The notes under the pieces are model-generated. The model ran no database searches. It saw nothing but the letters and a program-made list of their open reading frames with translations, and was not told the origin of the DNA. The position numbers and the translations under genes are program-made. Shown here in pieces: positions 28,180 to 34,686 of a DNA stretch of 52,632 nucleotides (position 1 is its first letter; each line of letters begins with the position of its first letter). Source of the stretch: Bifidobacterium breve (lineage in GTDB: Bacteria > Actinomycetota > Actinomycetes > S36-B12); contig CAMCSO010000003.1 in the NCBI GenBank assembly GCA_945877545.1, forward strand, positions 1 through 52,632, given 5' to 3'.

Positions 28180-29433
28180 TCATCGCGAATATTCCTCGCC
28201 CGGCGGTAGTTCGACGAGTCGCGCGGGCCGCACCGATGTTGATCCAAATCGGGCCCGAATGGAGTCCACTGCTATCTCAGCCTCGCGGCGACCTTGCTCA
28301 GGCGCTCCGAGCGTGAGCTGGCGCGCGGCACCCTGCGCCGGCTGAAGGCCCTCAACGCGGATACCGACGAGGCGGATTCTCGCCCGCTGGAGCCCGAGTG
28401 CATCGAAGAGTCCTCGTGCTGTGTCATAGAGGTCCTGCGTCACGTCGATCGGACCGGGCATCGTCTTGGATCTCGTGATGGTCGTGAAGTCGGCGAATCG
28501 AACCTTGAGCTGGACCGTGCGACCCACCTGCTCTGTCGAGCGCAGTCGTGCTCCCACCTGGTCGGCGAGCTTCAGCAGATGTGCGTGAATGGCGATGGCG
28601 TCGTCAATATCGTCGTCGAAGGTCTCCTCGGCGCCGATGCTCTTCTCCGGCTCGCCAGGGCTCACCCGCCGGGAATCCCTACCCCAGGACAGCTCATGAA
28701 GATGCCGACCGGTCGCCTGACCCAGCGCTCGCTGAAGGGTCGCCACCGGGGTACTCGCGATGTCGCCCACCGTGCGCAGGCCGAGCCGTTCAAGTTGCTC
28801 CTCGGTCTTCTCTCCGACCCCCCAGAGCGCCCCTACCGGCAGGGGATGCAGGAACTCGATGACCTGCTCGGCCGGAACGACGAGAATGCCGTCCGGCTTG
28901 CTGCGGGTCGAGGCCAATTTCGCGACAAACTTCGTCGATGCCACACCAACCGAGCAGGTGATGCGCTGCTCGTCAAAGACTCGGGAGCGAATGAGCTCGC
29001 CGATCGCCGTCGGTGAGCCGAGTCGGCGCAGGGCTCCTGCTATGTCAAGAAAGGCCTCATCGAGACTCAGCGGCTCAACGAGTGGAGTGACAGAGTGGAA
29101 GAGCGACATGACGCCCCGACTGACCTCGGCGTAGGCCCGGTGGTCTGGGGGGATGATGACGGCGTCGGGCGCGAGCCGGCGAGCCCTTGAGATAGGCATA
29201 GCCGAGTGCACACCCATGGCCCGTGCCTCGTATGTGGCCGAAAGCACGACGCCGCGCCCACCAGCACCACCGACGATAACGGGCGTACCGTGCAGCTCCG
29301 GCCTGCTGCGTAGTTCGACGGATGCGTAGAAGGCGTCCATGTCGACATGAAGAATCGTGCAGCCGCCATCGTCAACACCGAGGCCCATGGGCCCACTCGA
29401 CCGCCGAACCTGGCTTCGACTCACAGTTGCCAT
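28180..29433 (-). CDS. dinB: Y-family DNA polymerase IV (DinB)
   Basis: 417 residues. Palm residues are intact: HVDMDAFYASVE (first Asp) and PLSLDEAFLDI (Asp-Glu pair), so it should be an active translesion polymerase rather than an inactive ImuB-type partner. The helix-hairpin-helix region LWGVGEKTEEQLERLGL and a little-finger domain follow. It is the last gene of the LexA-box operon, downstream of dnaE2. Its ATG lies directly beside a tandem 18-bp repeat, and no good ribosome site is visible. Confidence 0.93.
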   Translation of the reverse strand: MATVSRSQVRRSSGPMGLGVDDGGCTILHVDMDAFYASVELRSRPELHGTPVIVGGAGGRGVVLSATYEARAMGVHSAMPISRARRLAPDAVIIPPDHRAYAEVSRGVMSLFHSVTPLVEPLSLDEAFLDIAGALRRLGSPTAIGELIRSRVFDEQRITCSVGVASTKFVAKLASTRSKPDGILVVPAEQVIEFLHPLPVGALWGVGEKTEEQLERLGLRTVGDIASTPVATLQRALGQATGRHLHELSWGRDSRRVSPGEPEKSIGAEETFDDDIDDAIAIHAHLLKLADQVGARLRSTEQVGRTVQLKVRFADFTTITRSKTMPGPIDVTQDLYDTARGLFDALGLQRARIRLVGIRVEGLQPAQGAARQLTLGAPEQGRREAEIAVDSIRARFGSTSVRPARLVELPPGEEYSR

Positions 29434-29434
29434 C

Positions 29435-29488
29435 TTCTACCAGCCATTGCGGTTCTACCAGCCATTGCGGTTCTACCATCCACTGCTG
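29435..29488. repeat. Tandem 18-bp repeat at the dnaE2-dinB junction (2 exact + 1 diverged copy)
   Basis: TTCTACCAGCCATTGCGG occurs twice in a row (29435-29452, 29453-29470), and a third copy (TTCTACCATCCACTGCTG) holds the end and stop of dnaE2. The repeat fills the whole gap between dnaE2 and the dinB ATG. Each unit carries a TAG on the minus strand. The duplication likely pushed dinB away from the original dnaE2 stop. Confidence 0.9.
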
Positions 29489-32400
29489 CTCCCAGGGCTC
29501 GCGTGCCACAGTCTCCTGTCGGGAAGGCTCGCCCCTCTCACCGGAAGCGGGGAACTGCCCAGCTCTGGCCCGGCCGGCCGCACATCCGCGTACGGCGACT
29601 GGCGGAAGCCGCTCGCATGGACGAGTACTCGTTTGCTCATCGGGCCGTCGTCAACGAAGCGGTCGGCGTCGAGGATCCCAAGGAGTGCCTCGGCCCCGTT
29701 CGAGAGCCATAGATCGCGCACCCACCCCAACTCCCAGGCACCGGTCGCCCGGACCGACACACCTCGTGGGCCGGTCCGGCGGACCTCGCCCCGCACGAGG
29801 AGCAGCCATGATCCGAATACCGTTCGCGCGTACGGGCCCTGGGCATCCTCGAAGAAGGTGGCGTCGATTGGCCCGGTGGAGTCGTCGAGGGTCAGGAATA
29901 CGACACGCCGGCCCGAGCGGATCGGCGGGGTCTGCGTGGCAACCTTTACGCCAGCGATGAGCACCTCCTGGTGTGATCGGCAGGAGAGCATCCGGTTGGC
30001 CCGTGTCACGCCGAGTTGCCGGAGCAGTTCCGAATGGAAGTCCATGACATGGTGGCTGACATCAAGTCCGAGAACATCAAGTTCAGCACGGACAAGTTCA
30101 GACGCGCTCATCTCTGGAAGCCCTGACGGCTTCAACTCATCGTCACCGAGCGCAAATGACAACTGCGCCGTGCAGTCATTCGTGCTTCGGCTACTCCGCG
30201 CTAGGTCTGAGATCTGTAGGAGCAGGTCACGCCGGGTGATGCGGCCACGCTGACGAACCTTGCGGTCAGTGTTGAATCCGTAGACCGTGTCGAATGCTCC
30301 GGCGATGACGAGCCGCTCGATGGTCGGGCGGGCTAGGCCCGCACGGTGCCAGGCATCGACGAGCGACGAGTACGGCTGGCCGATCGCGATACTCGTCACC
30401 TCCTCATCGGAGATGCCCTTCACATCGGCGAATGGGAGTCGAATCCCCCAGGTAGCGTCCGGCCCGGACTCGACCCGGTAGGCCTCGGATGACCGATTGA
30501 TGTCCAGACCAAGAATCCGCACGCCGTGATTGCGGGCATCGTCAAGGATGAGCCGTTTTGGATACATGCCGGGATCGTGTGTGAGGATCCCGGCATAGAA
30601 GGGGGCCGGGTGATGAGCCTTCAACCATGCCGACTGATAGGTCGGCATGGCGAAAGCTGCGGCATGCGCCTTGCAGAAGCCGAATGAGGCGAACGACCGA
30701 AGCACATCCCATACCTTCTCGACTACGCCGAGCGCATAGCCCCGGCGAATCGCGGCAGGGTAAAACCAGACCCGGACCTCGTCAATGCCTGCTGGCGAGT
30801 TCATCGAACGCCTGCTTTCATCGGCCTCTGCCAATGAGCACCCGGTCATGATCTCGACGATGCGCATGACCTGCTCATGGAAGACCACAACACCGTAGGT
30901 TTCTTCGAGCACCTGCCGCAGGTCCTGATGGAGGTACTGCGGCGCGTTCCAGCCCTGGCGCGCCCGCAGGAACGGCGTGATCATGTCTGACTTCACCGGC
31001 CCGGGACGGAACAGCGAGATGTCGATGATGAGGTCGGCGAAGGTCTCCGGCGCGAACTTACCGATGAGTTCCCGCTGGCCCGGCGACTCGATCTGAAAAC
31101 AGCCGAGCGTACGGGTGGATCGGATGAGGTCAAAGGTCCGCTCATCGTCAAGTGCCGATGTGTCGAGTTCGATTCGCTCCCCCGTGGTCCTCTCGATCTC
31201 ATCGATCGCGTGGGCCATCGACGATTGCATTCGTACACCGAGCACATCAAGTTTGAGCAGGCCCATCTCTTCGACATCGACCTTGTCGAACTGGCTCATC
31301 GGATAGCCTGCGGCGCTCGGCTCGACCGGTGTCCGGTTGAGCAGCGAGGCATCCGAGAGCAGCACCCCGCACGGATGCAGGGCGACGTGTCGAGGCAGCC
31401 CATCAAGGGACTCGACGAGACTGAGGAATGAATCGAGGTCGCCCCGCGCAGCGAGCCTGCCGAAGCTGGAGTTGCGCAGTTCGGGCAGATCAGCGAGTGC
31501 TGCGCGGGCATCGCGCGCGCGGATATGCGGAAAGGCTTTGGCAAATAACCCGATATCACCGGGTGGCATGCCTAACGCTGCGCCCACATCGCGGACCGCA
31601 TGCCGCACCCGATATGTCTCCATCATCGACACACACGCCACACGTTCGGCCCCGAAGCGCTCGAAGATGAGGTCGTAGGCCTCAAGACGGCGGGCGGCCT
31701 CCACGTCAATATCAATGTCGGGCAGCACTCGGCGCAATGGCGACAAAAAGCGCTCCATAAGCAATCCGTGCCTGATCGGATCAACGCCCGAAATACCGAG
31801 GAGGTGATTGACGAGACTTCCCGCTCCTGATCCGCGGGCCGCAACCCTGATCCCCCGAGCCCTGATCAGCCTGACGACCTCGGCGACGGTGAGGAAGTAC
31901 CCGGCGAAGCCCAGCTTCGTGATGGTCTGCAGTTCATCGGTGAGCCTGACACGCGCAGCACCGCGGTCGACAGCACTCGGATAGGCCCCATTGATTGCAT
32001 GGGCACACTGCCGCTGCAGGATCCGGTCGGCTTCGCGGATCGACGAGGCTGTATCACTCGACACCTGCCGGTTCAGCAGCACATCGAGTTCGGGGACGAA
32101 GACCTCGCCAAGCCCGAGGTCGCCAGCCGGGTCGATCACGCACTCCTGCGCCAGATCGAGCGTGCTGCGTAGCAGGTCACTCGGATCACACCCAGCAACC
32201 GCCGAGATCTCAGCGGCCACCACTGCGAGTTCAGCGGGCGACTTCAGATGCGCCTCGCCATTGTTGAGCGAGAAGCGGTGCGAGCCGAGTGGCACGAGAA
32301 GTCGCGCCGAATCGAGTACATCGGCAACTCGTGCATCACTTCGGTCAAGGTGCCGCACAGCGTTCGTGAGCACGACCGGGATCCGCCATCCGTTCGCCCA

Positions 32401-33060
32401 CTGCCACATCCGGGCGTCCGACACGGTCGACGCTGGATGGCCTGCTGCGGTTCGGTGACTGGTGAGCGCGACCCGAAGGTCAAGAGCAGCGATCGAGCGC
32501 AGGGCCCGTAGCGAATCATCGGCGCGGTTCGCCCGGCCACTCGCGAGATGCAAAGCGAACTCCGATGTCCATCCGAGCAGTACGACCAGTCCTTCGCCGT
32601 GCTCCTCGAGCGCTTTCCATGGCAGCCACGGCATCCCCCGCTCGGTATGCGCGCCACCGTGGGCGATCGACACGACTCGGCACAGGGAGGCCCACCCGCG
32701 CCGGCCCTTCGCGAGAAGAACGACCCTCGGCCGATGCTCATCAATCCACTGCCCGCCACGGGCCGGGGTACGGCGGCTGGTGCTCAGCTTGGTATCCGGG
32801 ACCAGCTTGGTATCCGGGACCAGCTTGGTATCTGGAAGTAGCGACTCGACGGCAAGGTCGACACCGAGCACTGTCGCGATTGACCCTCGCTCACATGCCC
32901 GGACCCATTGCACCGCGCCATACAACCCATCACGGTCCGCGAGGCCGATGATGTTGTGCCCATCGGCGACCGCCCTGTCGATGAGCCGCTGGGGCGTCGA
33001 CGTTCCGTACTGCAGCGAGTAGCTCGATGCCACCTGCAGATGCGGCCATGCGTATGCCAT
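29473..33060 (-). CDS. dnaE2: Error-prone DNA polymerase III alpha subunit (DnaE2/ImuC type)
   Basis: 1195 residues. C-family polymerase used in induced mutagenesis. The N-terminal PHP-like domain keeps the fold (SSYSLQYGTSTPQRLIDRA, GLADRDGLYGAVQW) but the HxH and DH metal motifs are changed, so it is probably not a nuclease. The palm has RGSGAGSLVNHLLG and the catalytic PDIDIDVEAARR. A tandem finger region and a C-terminal OB fold follow. Residues 75-92 are a triplicated PDTKLV unit in the PHP domain. Member of the DUF6504-HEPN-dnaE2-dinB SOS operon; start at ATG 33060. Confidence 0.92.
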   Translation of the reverse strand: MAYAWPHLQVASSYSLQYGTSTPQRLIDRAVADGHNIIGLADRDGLYGAVQWVRACERGSIATVLGVDLAVESLLPDTKLVPDTKLVPDTKLSTSRRTPARGGQWIDEHRPRVVLLAKGRRGWASLCRVVSIAHGGAHTERGMPWLPWKALEEHGEGLVVLLGWTSEFALHLASGRANRADDSLRALRSIAALDLRVALTSHRTAAGHPASTVSDARMWQWANGWRIPVVLTNAVRHLDRSDARVADVLDSARLLVPLGSHRFSLNNGEAHLKSPAELAVVAAEISAVAGCDPSDLLRSTLDLAQECVIDPAGDLGLGEVFVPELDVLLNRQVSSDTASSIREADRILQRQCAHAINGAYPSAVDRGAARVRLTDELQTITKLGFAGYFLTVAEVVRLIRARGIRVAARGSGAGSLVNHLLGISGVDPIRHGLLMERFLSPLRRVLPDIDIDVEAARRLEAYDLIFERFGAERVACVSMMETYRVRHAVRDVGAALGMPPGDIGLFAKAFPHIRARDARAALADLPELRNSSFGRLAARGDLDSFLSLVESLDGLPRHVALHPCGVLLSDASLLNRTPVEPSAAGYPMSQFDKVDVEEMGLLKLDVLGVRMQSSMAHAIDEIERTTGERIELDTSALDDERTFDLIRSTRTLGCFQIESPGQRELIGKFAPETFADLIIDISLFRPGPVKSDMITPFLRARQGWNAPQYLHQDLRQVLEETYGVVVFHEQVMRIVEIMTGCSLAEADESRRSMNSPAGIDEVRVWFYPAAIRRGYALGVVEKVWDVLRSFASFGFCKAHAAAFAMPTYQSAWLKAHHPAPFYAGILTHDPGMYPKRLILDDARNHGVRILGLDINRSSEAYRVESGPDATWGIRLPFADVKGISDEEVTSIAIGQPYSSLVDAWHRAGLARPTIERLVIAGAFDTVYGFNTDRKVRQRGRITRRDLLLQISDLARSSRSTNDCTAQLSFALGDDELKPSGLPEMSASELVRAELDVLGLDVSHHVMDFHSELLRQLGVTRANRMLSCRSHQEVLIAGVKVATQTPPIRSGRRVVFLTLDDSTGPIDATFFEDAQGPYARTVFGSWLLLVRGEVRRTGPRGVSVRATGAWELGWVRDLWLSNGAEALLGILDADRFVDDGPMSKRVLVHASGFRQSPYADVRPAGPELGSSPLPVRGASLPDRRLWHASPGSSSGW
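32786..32839. repeat. In-frame tandem 18-bp repeat inside dnaE2
   Basis: AGCTTGGTATCCGGGACC occurs twice exactly and once diverged (AGCTTGGTATCTGGAAGT). It encodes three copies of a PDTKLV-like hexapeptide at residues 75-92. The frame is kept. The unit length is the same as the repeat at the other end of the gene, but the sequence is unrelated. Confidence 0.9.
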
Positions 33061-33130: not shown

Positions 33131-33185
33131 GCAGTGGTCGCCAGTTCAACAAGACACGGGGGGTCGCCGAACTGGCGACCACTGC
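33131..33185 (-). promoter_or_regulatory. Perfect 17-bp inverted repeat with a nested competing hairpin before dnaE2
   Basis: GCAGTGGTCGCCAGTTC (33131-33147) and GAACTGGCGACCACTGC (33169-33185) match perfectly around a 21-base loop. GGTCGCC recurs just before the right arm, so GGTCGCC-gaact-GGCGACC can form instead. Two mutually exclusive folds with a shared arm resemble an attenuator. It lies between the HEPN stop and the dnaE2 start. No U-tract follows on either strand, so simple intrinsic termination is doubtful. Confidence 0.7.
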
Positions 33186-33224: not shown

Positions 33225-33710
33225 TCAGCCGGTATGTCGGAGACCGGCGATCAGCATGGTCTGATGGGGCAGGCCGAGCGCCCCGGTGACACGGGCCAAG
33301 AATGCATCGGCATCCCGGACAAGATCATCTGCCTCGCGGGCGGTGACGCATGGCACGCCCGCCTCCGCCGCGGAACGCTTGCGTGCACTGGCGGCAAAGA
33401 AGGCAGCCCATTCCGTGAACTCAATTGCCACCTCAGGCAGCACCACCCAAACGCTGCGGACCTGCCGCCGACGCTTGCCGTTTGGCTGGCTCCGAGTTGC
33501 GAGTACGGCCGCCGCCGCGCGCAGTGCGGCCAGATGCGCAGCCGCGTAACGCTCACAGGGCGTGCTCGCGATCACGGCCTCGGTCAGGCTCCTGCGCGCA
33601 GAAGCCACGAGATCTCGGGCCGATGCGGGCAGCGGCGCACGTGCAGGCGACCCGGTGCTGGCCGCACGCGGCAGGCAAACCGTCGCTACGGTGCTCGTCA
33701 GGGTGGTCAT
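33225..33710 (-). CDS. SAV_6107-family HEPN-domain protein
   Basis: 161 residues, all-helical. The region LVASARRSLTEAVIASTPCERYAAAHLAALRAAAAVLATR matches the actinobacterial SAV_6107-type HEPN family, and VWVVLPEVAIEFTEWAAFFAASA is its second conserved block. These genes are regular neighbours of dnaE2-type polymerases in actinobacteria; a molecular role has not been settled. I do not see the usual RxxxxH RNase motif clearly. GGAG ribosome site 6 bases before the ATG. Second gene of the SOS operon. Confidence 0.8.
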   Translation of the reverse strand: MTTLTSTVATVCLPRAASTGSPARAPLPASARDLVASARRSLTEAVIASTPCERYAAAHLAALRAAAAVLATRSQPNGKRRRQVRSVWVVLPEVAIEFTEWAAFFAASARKRSAAEAGVPCVTAREADDLVRDADAFLARVTGALGLPHQTMLIAGLRHTG

Positions 33711-33746: not shown

Positions 33747-34040
33747 CTAATCACTGATCCTGAGGAGTTGCCATGCATCGGCAACCACCGCCAGGTCATA
33801 CACACCAGAGGTTCCGGTGCGCGATACCGCTTCGACCCGCCAGACATCGCGATGCGCTGCCCGACCATTCGACCCTGCTGAACCCAGTTCCCGCCACCAC
33901 AATGTCGCCTCGACCCAGCATGCAAGCACTTCCTGCACCTCGTAGCGCCGACCCTTCCAGCGAAACCCCGACGGAGCCCCGCTCTCATGCACGGTCACCC
34001 GAACCGCCTGGACGGTGGGTGACCTAAAACGGCGACTCAC
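33747..34040 (-). CDS. DUF6504-family protein, first gene of the SOS operon
   Basis: 97 residues from GTG 34040 (MSRRFRSPTVQAVRV), with AAAGG 9-10 bases before it. The track start at 34199 lies upstream of the LexA box and cannot be right. Family features: SGFRWKGRRYEVQEVLACW, ATLWWRE, DVWRVEA, and a C-terminal VYDLAVV...WQLLRI. Small beta-rich proteins of this family accompany dnaE2/dinB genes in actinobacteria. Function unknown; co-regulation suggests a role in translesion synthesis. Confidence 0.78.
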   Translation of the reverse strand: MSRRFRSPTVQAVRVTVHESGAPSGFRWKGRRYEVQEVLACWVEATLWWRELGSAGSNGRAAHRDVWRVEAVSRTGTSGVYDLAVVADAWQLLRISD

Positions 34041-34145
34041 CGGTGTCGGCCTTTCAGGTCGACCCGTCTGCCGGGCTCGGGGTCGAGGCGAGCTCGGCAG
34101 ACGGGTACGTGACCATTCGACCTCAGCCGCGAATCCGAGATCGAA

Positions 34146-34173
34146 CCGTATTCGAACATTTGTTCGAATACGG
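34146..34173. promoter_or_regulatory. LexA (SOS) box in a perfect 28-bp palindrome
   Basis: CCGTATTCGAACA-TT-TGTTCGAATACGG. The core TCGAAC-N4-GTTCGA is the actinobacterial SOS-box consensus with no mismatch. It lies 105 bp upstream of the DUF6504 start and 117 bp upstream of the divergent 34291 gene, so it could act on either. The match beyond the core on both sides is unusually long. Confidence 0.88.
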
Positions 34174-34290
34174 GATACGCTAGCCCCCGCCCCTGACATC
34201 CGTCAATCCCTGTGTTTTTTGATTCGGTTTCGATATGGGTGCCGAGCGATGGATACTAGGAGCACCATCGAGAGTGTCGAAGGAGTCGCC

Positions 34291-34686
34291 ATGAGTGAGA
34301 AGGACAGCCAAGCCGACTGGCGAGGGGTCGGCGACTCAATCAAGGACCTCGGAAAGAAGCTCAAAGCGCACGCTGACGACGCGCAGGATGCCATCAAGTC
34401 CAGCAGCGCTCCGCTCACTGGTGTCGCAGAGCAGGTCGGTGCAGTGTTCAAGACCGGGATCGCAAAACTCGATGAGGCAGCGACCGATCCTGCCGTTGGC
34501 GCAGCAGCGCGTGGCGCAACCGGCAAGTTCCTCGACGCGCTTAAGGCGCAGCTCGGTGCTGACAAACCCAGCGCCGACAAACCGGCGCCAGTAACCGGAG
34601 AGGACGCAGCGCGCGACACGACCGAGCCAGCAACTGAGCAGCCCACCGACCCGCAACCCGATCCCAAGGCACCGTCTGGGACGTGA
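34291..34686 (+). CDS. Small helical acidic-tail protein, unknown
   Basis: 131 residues from ATG 34291 (MSEKDSQADWRGVGDSIKDLGKKL), with GAAGGAG 5 bases upstream; the track ORF extends back through the LexA region. Residues 10-105 are predicted helical and alternate charged and Ala-rich stretches (LKAHADDAQDAIKSS). Residues 105-131 are a Pro/Asp/Glu/Thr tail. No membrane segment and no catalytic motif. It looks like a small actinobacterial cytoplasmic protein family of unknown role. It may share the LexA-box intergenic region. Confidence 0.72.
   Translation: MSEKDSQADWRGVGDSIKDLGKKLKAHADDAQDAIKSSSAPLTGVAEQVGAVFKTGIAKLDEAATDPAVGAAARGATGKFLDALKAQLGADKPSADKPAPVTGEDAARDTTEPATEQPTDPQPDPKAPSGT

Follow-up and report, generated by a model that had tools for sequence, protein, structure and literature searches.

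The window analysed here, a stretch of 52,632 nucleotides, is contig C3 of a 2.97-Mb genome that is 90.5% complete. Its minus strand carries, in this order, an exact LexA box, a gene for a DUF6504 protein, a gene for a HEPN_SAV_6107 protein, a DnaE-type polymerase gene, dinB and, further on, a gene of the DUF3040 (SCO2097) family. The DUF6504 gene (33747..34040, minus strand) encodes 97 amino acids from a GTG start codon (PF20114, 4.9e-14), and the HEPN gene (33225..33710, minus strand) encodes an all-helical protein of 161 amino acids (PF18726, 5.4e-33). The C-family polymerase (29473..33060, minus strand; 1195 amino acids) is a DnaE2 of the DnaE2B type according to Pfam and a tree, and DinB (28180..29433, minus strand; 417 amino acids) is a Y-family polymerase of the Pol IV type. 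An earlier note on this DNA had given the same gene order and families and had read the locus as a mutagenesis operon, a reading that our analysis supports.

The gaps between the genes measure 36 nt (DUF6504-HEPN), 164 nt (HEPN-dnaE2) and 39 nt (dnaE2-dinB). Within the 164-nt gap lies a strong RNA hairpin (33131..33185, minus strand) with 17-bp perfect arms and a folding z of -5.6, which is single-copy in the genome and kept in three close relatives; two of these have a paired T-A to C-G change and the third has a T-G wobble. The hairpin could be a terminator, an attenuator or a processing site. Two sets of 18-bp tandem repeats were also seen, one at 32785-32832, encoding PDTKLV repeats in the N-terminal region of DnaE2, and one at 29435-29486, at the 3' end of dnaE2 beside dinB. 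On the plus strand, a small divergent gene (34294-34686) that has no Pfam match starts from the same intergenic region as the operon, where the LexA box lies, and could be under LexA control too. In many loci of other actinomycetes (for example, L099:8652-9554), the stretch from DnaE2 to DinB, or that from HEPN to DinB/DUF3040, repeatedly holds a gene for a SAM-dependent methyltransferase; this is not so in the window. The host is a freshwater actinobacterium whose nearest credibly named relatives are Nanopelagicales. Four GenBank MAG contigs titled 'Bifidobacterium breve' (L079, L080, L081 and L110) carry the Nanopelagicales-type operon, and these labels look wrong; the HEPN proteins of the first three are 86-96% identical to that of the window.

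The LexA (SOS) box, TCGAACATTTGTTCGA (34152..34167, unstranded), is free of mismatches to the actinobacterial consensus, as the earlier note had stated; the start codon of DUF6504 follows ~112 nt downstream. We placed this start by homology at the GTG at 34040; a 150-aa version of DUF6504 from the ATG at 34199 was rejected, since it would read through the box and the homologues begin near 34040. The box is the centre of a dyad (34146..34173, unstranded) that had been described as a 28-bp perfect palindrome. The extent is right, but the dyad is not fully paired, because two 13-nt arms that are 100% complementary (34146-34158 and 34161-34173) flank a 2-nt TT centre.

Exact copies of the 16-mer consensus are found at four sites in the genome. 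Three are in promoters, namely those of this operon, of recA (contig C5) and of lexA (contig C208), and the fourth (contig C82) falls within an ORF; the recA and lexA boxes served as positive controls. At 113 homologous HEPN loci, the 184 kb lying up to 1.6 kb upstream of HEPN contain 90 exact boxes, while 1,062 kb elsewhere contain four, so that the density near HEPN is ~130 times higher. This enrichment and the two controls led us to reject a chance match. The box in the operon promoter is kept in relatives, upstream of the homologous operons. Since three of the four exact boxes in the genome are in promoters and boxes are enriched at the HEPN loci, the sequence evidence makes a strong case that the operon is under LexA regulation, as the earlier note had proposed. 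The lexA gene itself is apparently split between two contig ends, C208 (4811-4893) and C265 (2-17), which have the box TCGAACATATGTTTGA in common, and its promoter holds two boxes.

DUF6504 had been described, together with the HEPN protein, as a small protein of unknown role, which for DUF6504 no longer applies. Judged by profile comparisons, DUF6504 is the detached C-terminal domain of ImuB (ImuB-C), encoded as a separate protein. PF20114 also matches the C-terminal 75 residues of a Caulobacter-plasmid ImuB (1.4e-7, above the Pfam gathering cut-off) and, more weakly, the C-termini of Rhizobium and Agrobacterium ImuB, and hhalign matched DUF6504 to the Caulobacter/Rhizobium/Agrobacterium ImuB C-termini at 87.8% with an E-value of 3.3e-6. 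The actinobacterial ImuB2-C gave no PF20114 match and its hhalign match to DUF6504 was weak. The AF2 model of DUF6504 (pLDDT 83) is predicted to be all beta, with six strands, and has no structural match in the PDB; for ImuB-C, a beta barrel that lacks close relatives in the PDB has been reported (PMC12926913). PDB sequence searches with DUF6504 and HEPN returned nothing useful. The name ImuB-C goes back to PMC3765255, where the domain was described as occurring alone, too, beside DinB and DnaE2. The PF20114 matches on ImuB C-termini and the hhalign result led us to reject the idea that DUF6504 is a novel sort of accessory protein. The literature searched holds no mention of DUF6504 by name; its identity is new here, as is its link with DnaE2B across a sample of the class.

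This link was quantified with Fisher odds ratios in 198 Actinomycetes genomes. DnaE2B is present in 75 of the 87 genomes that have DUF6504, giving an odds ratio of 28 (94 without Streptomyces); these ratios ignore kinship and overstate certainty because related genomes are not independent. DUF6504 adjoins DnaE2B (within 3 kb) in 66 of the 75 genomes, and in eight of the remaining nine the two genes are on separate contigs of draft genomes. At the HEPN loci, DUF6504 is found in 38/38 cases with DnaE2B vs 0/12 with DnaE2A or ImuB. The complete DUF6504-HEPN-DnaE2B-DinB operon is present, for example, in the type strains of Streptacidiphilus pinicola (L142) and Yinghuangia soli (L107), which are culturable and non-pathogenic. 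Eight relatives (L084, L095, L096, L098, L106, L112, L131 and L156) have the LexA box directly ahead of HEPN-DnaE2B and no DUF6504, and in such relatives DinB lies downstream wherever the contig extends that far. A hidden DUF6504 in the tblastn-negative loci was considered, and an HMM built from alignment A3 found none there either. Likewise, four genomes of the window's own family (G301, G311, G320 and G328) contain DnaE2B and gave no PF20114 match. ImuB-C is thus not indispensable in this group, because box-HEPN-DnaE2B-DinB persists in some close relatives from which DUF6504 has been lost.

DnaE2 retains the polymerase aspartates (PDIDID, LKLD) and has lost the PHP metal-site histidines, which the genome's own DnaE1 has. 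Its C-terminus, ending in WHASPGSSSGW, lacks the SRDF[HR] motif, and in our tree it falls in a clade with 100/100 support with the DnaE2 of the Arthrobacter DnaE2-ImuB-C row, apart from the DnaE2A rows that have ImuB loci. The DinB motifs MDMDAFY and SLDEA are present, in agreement with the earlier description of a catalytically intact enzyme. The DinB tail contains RQLTLG (28306..28323, minus strand), a candidate beta-clamp-binding motif of the Q[LM]xL type, and a motif of this type occupies the same place in most complete DinB tails. Farther along the tail is a RecA-NT-like motif, EAEIAVDSIRARFGSTSVRPARL (28216..28284, minus strand), recognised by family consensus comparison. When compared with the N-terminus of the genome's own RecA, the family consensus beat 1999 of 2000 shuffles; for the window DinB sequence alone, 335 of 2000 shuffles reached its score. 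In the 90.5%-complete genome, no Y-family protein other than the operon DinB was found, and a search for full-length ImuB with an actinobacterial query matches DinB alone. The earlier statement that no ImuB is recognisable therefore holds for full-length ImuB and not for its C-terminal domain, which is present as DUF6504. A known ImuA has no Pfam match, so Pfam cannot probe the genome for ImuA, and PF00154 is no test for it.

The HEPN protein was modelled by AF2 with a pLDDT of 84, and the best PDB matches of the model are HEPN structures. Alignment A4 has ten invariant residues (Y55, A56, A58, H59, R64, W88, W101, R112, D128 and R132). HEPN is present in 143 of the 198 genomes, its odds ratio with DnaE2B is 1.04, and 23 genomes have DUF6504 and DnaE2B without HEPN; this odds ratio led us to reject HEPN as a DnaE2B-specific subunit. 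The earlier proposal that both small proteins are accessory parts of a mutasome accordingly stands for DUF6504 and is unsupported by co-occurrence for HEPN.

The distribution of LexA boxes gives a different view of HEPN. We sampled 113 HEPN loci from 32 families and searched for a box with at most one mismatch before HEPN or its operon, and such a box precedes 105 of them. By neighbour, the box is present at 38/38 loci with DnaE2B, 12/12 with DnaE2A/ImuB and 24/24 with DinB only, and at 31 of the 39 loci with no polymerase in the region covered (~6 kb). The eight box-less loci comprise five from Streptomyces, two from family f4 and one on a cut-off contig. In three families (f92, f90 and f86), HEPN has a LexA box to itself and polymerases are absent from its vicinity. 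The Streptomyces HEPN gene lies beside a methyltransferase and DUF3040, with neither box nor polymerases; six Streptomyces HEPN promoters (L089, L097, L099, L100, L134 and L146) contain a degenerate, asymmetric box-like element, CGAACnnnnGATCGA, ~215-256 nt upstream, which is perhaps a decayed LexA box. The order HEPN-ImuB-DnaE2A-DinB occurs in L167-L169. At ten loci (L167-L172, L192, L230, L234 and L235), HEPN is clustered with ImuB and DnaE2A, and sometimes with a methyltransferase, DinB and DUF3040, which makes up an extensive SOS cluster close to the mraZ region of cell division.

Corynebacterium glutamicum also encodes a PF18726 protein. In this species, cg2381 is a LexA-regulon gene with M = 3.86 upon ciprofloxacin treatment, equal to recA (PMC5055667). 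It is three locus numbers from mraZ (cg2378), and related loci are ordered HEPN-DUF3040-mraZ; from this position, cg2381 is a probable HEPN_SAV_6107 member. The occurrence and box data fit HEPN_SAV_6107 best as a core SOS gene of Actinomycetes and not as a subunit specific to this mutasome. Our search, mostly of openly accessible literature, found no prior description of HEPN as a class-wide LexA-box gene; that HEPN has this box across Actinomycetes, whatever mutasome adjoins, is new here.

Among known systems, the operon most closely resembles the DnaE2B-[ImuB-C]-PolY-RecA module, exemplified by Tessaracoccus lapidicaptus (PMC12926913), with which it has in common a DnaE2B-type polymerase, a stand-alone ImuB-C and an apparently active Y-family polymerase; in the 90.5%-complete genome there is also no full-length ImuB and no recognised ImuA. 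It differs from this module in its HEPN gene, which the text of PMC12926913 does not mention. Part of the earlier suggestion of an alternative actinobacterial mutasome is thus already in that paper, where the DnaE2/ImuB-C/PolY arrangement is described. The DnaE2-[ImuB-C] module of Arthrobacter alpinus (PMC12926913) is represented here by a plasmid of Arthrobacter sp. YA7-1 (L161), on which an annotated DUF6504 gene directly precedes dnaE2; the window, too, has DUF6504 ahead of dnaE2, but the plasmid locus lacks DinB and HEPN. The ImuA'-ImuB-DnaE2 mutasome of the Mycobacterium tuberculosis type resembles the operon in its LexA control, DnaE2, ImuB-C domain and Y-family partner, and HEPN adjoins this cassette in other actinomycetes. 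However, the genome has no full, catalytically dead ImuB or recognised ImuA', the operon DinB is intact, and its DnaE2 lies outside the DnaE2A clade and lacks the C-terminal SRDF[HR] motif. In Streptomyces, the DnaE2B-iPolY-RecA system (scDinB2) also combines DnaE2B with a Y-family partner, and LexA targets the dnaE2-dinP pair of S. venezuelae (PMC9380542), but in Streptomyces the Y-family partner is inactive (PMC12926913) and DnaE2B occurs without DUF6504. The probable HEPN family member cg2381 is SOS-induced, yet no polymerase operon is known to contain it. HEPN RNases and HEPN-MNT toxin-antitoxins have in common with the window protein the HEPN fold predicted by its model; unlike in HEPN-MNT pairs, the neighbours of HEPN in the window are DUF6504 and DnaE2, with no nucleotidyltransferase.

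Because the DUF6504 Pfam model matches the proteobacterial ImuB C-terminal domain, we assign the operon to the DnaE2B-[ImuB-C]-PolY-RecA type. Probably, it is a LexA-repressed, damage-induced translesion module of this type with an added HEPN gene, which would be a co-expressed core SOS gene. LexA bound to the dyad would repress the operon, as the conserved box suggests. At damaged DNA, RecA forms filaments that set off the cleavage of LexA, upon which DUF6504, HEPN, DnaE2 and DinB would be made. DinB may contact the clamp via RQLTLG and RecA via its C-terminal RecA-NT-like segment, and DUF6504 may tie DnaE2 to the DinB-RecA assembly by touching the PHP region of DnaE2, a contact that has been modelled for ImuB-C (PMC12926913). 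Error-prone synthesis would then be the work of DnaE2, whose PHP proofreading site is dead, and of the active DinB. HEPN would be co-expressed with the mutasome and, by co-occurrence, would not be a dedicated subunit of this mutasome type. Several findings count against the module: the hairpin between HEPN and dnaE2 might cut the transcript, DUF6504 is lost in some relatives, the RecA-NT score of the single sequence is within the range of shuffles, and the profile match to ImuB2-C is weak.

The two polymerases might instead be merely co-regulated and act singly, with no multi-protein mutasome. An intact DinB is able to work alone, HEPN and DinB occur without DnaE2 in 24 loci, and the RecA-NT match is weak for the window DinB by itself, all of which would fit independent enzymes; nevertheless, the tight tracking of DnaE2B by DUF6504 and published AlphaFold modelling that supports complexes for this module type (PMC12926913) make this alternative improbable. 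A further question is whether HEPN belongs to the mutasome after all, as a true accessory subunit that contacts DnaE2, DinB or the clamp and controls error-prone synthesis in every type of actinobacterial mutasome. In 74 of the 113 loci its gene neighbours that of DnaE2B, DnaE2A/ImuB or DinB, and it is the sole accessory gene kept with DnaE2B and DinB in relatives lacking ImuB-C. On the other hand, its genome-level association with DnaE2B is nil, DUF6504 and DnaE2B dispense with it in the 23 genomes noted above, three families retain it with a separate box and no neighbouring polymerase, Streptomyces retains it without either, and the DnaE2 literature examined, including the text of PMC12926913, makes no mention of it. 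We therefore regard a subunit role as a possible but doubtful explanation.

HEPN could also be an SOS-induced RNase or growth-checkpoint effector that acts on RNA during damage. The HEPN fold of the model and the SOS control are compatible with such an activity, as is a weak PADLOC match to PDC-M05B, and the R54-x4-H59 pair, nearly invariant in the alignment, resembles the Rx4-6H pattern. However, both residues sit in the second helix of the model, and the HEPN survey in PMC3710099 lists the SAV_6107 family as lacking the RNase motif. Moreover, DUF6504, the methyltransferase, DUF3040 and the polymerases are the only genes seen repeatedly around HEPN, in loci where not every ORF is annotated, so that a nucleotidyltransferase or antitoxin partner did not emerge. 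An RNase function thus seems unlikely. As a first guess, HEPN would serve the SOS response as an adaptor or regulator that has no catalytic activity. On balance we favour HEPN_SAV_6107 as an uncharacterised core SOS effector of Actinomycetes, found beside every mutasome type seen and also alone. It might regulate translesion polymerases in general, or it might form a branch of the SOS response in its own right, directed at RNA or protein.

In actinobacteria, mutasomes are drivers of damage-induced mutation, and in mycobacteria this includes mutation to drug resistance. The operon described here would give its host error-prone polymerases under damage control, in a module whose kind was published recently (PMC12926913, 2026). 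Reading DUF6504 as a stand-alone ImuB-C would turn a large set of 'unknown' genes into mutasome parts. HEPN, in turn, would be a testable, unstudied SOS gene common to most of the class, and it is probably visible in C. glutamicum as a strongly induced unknown.
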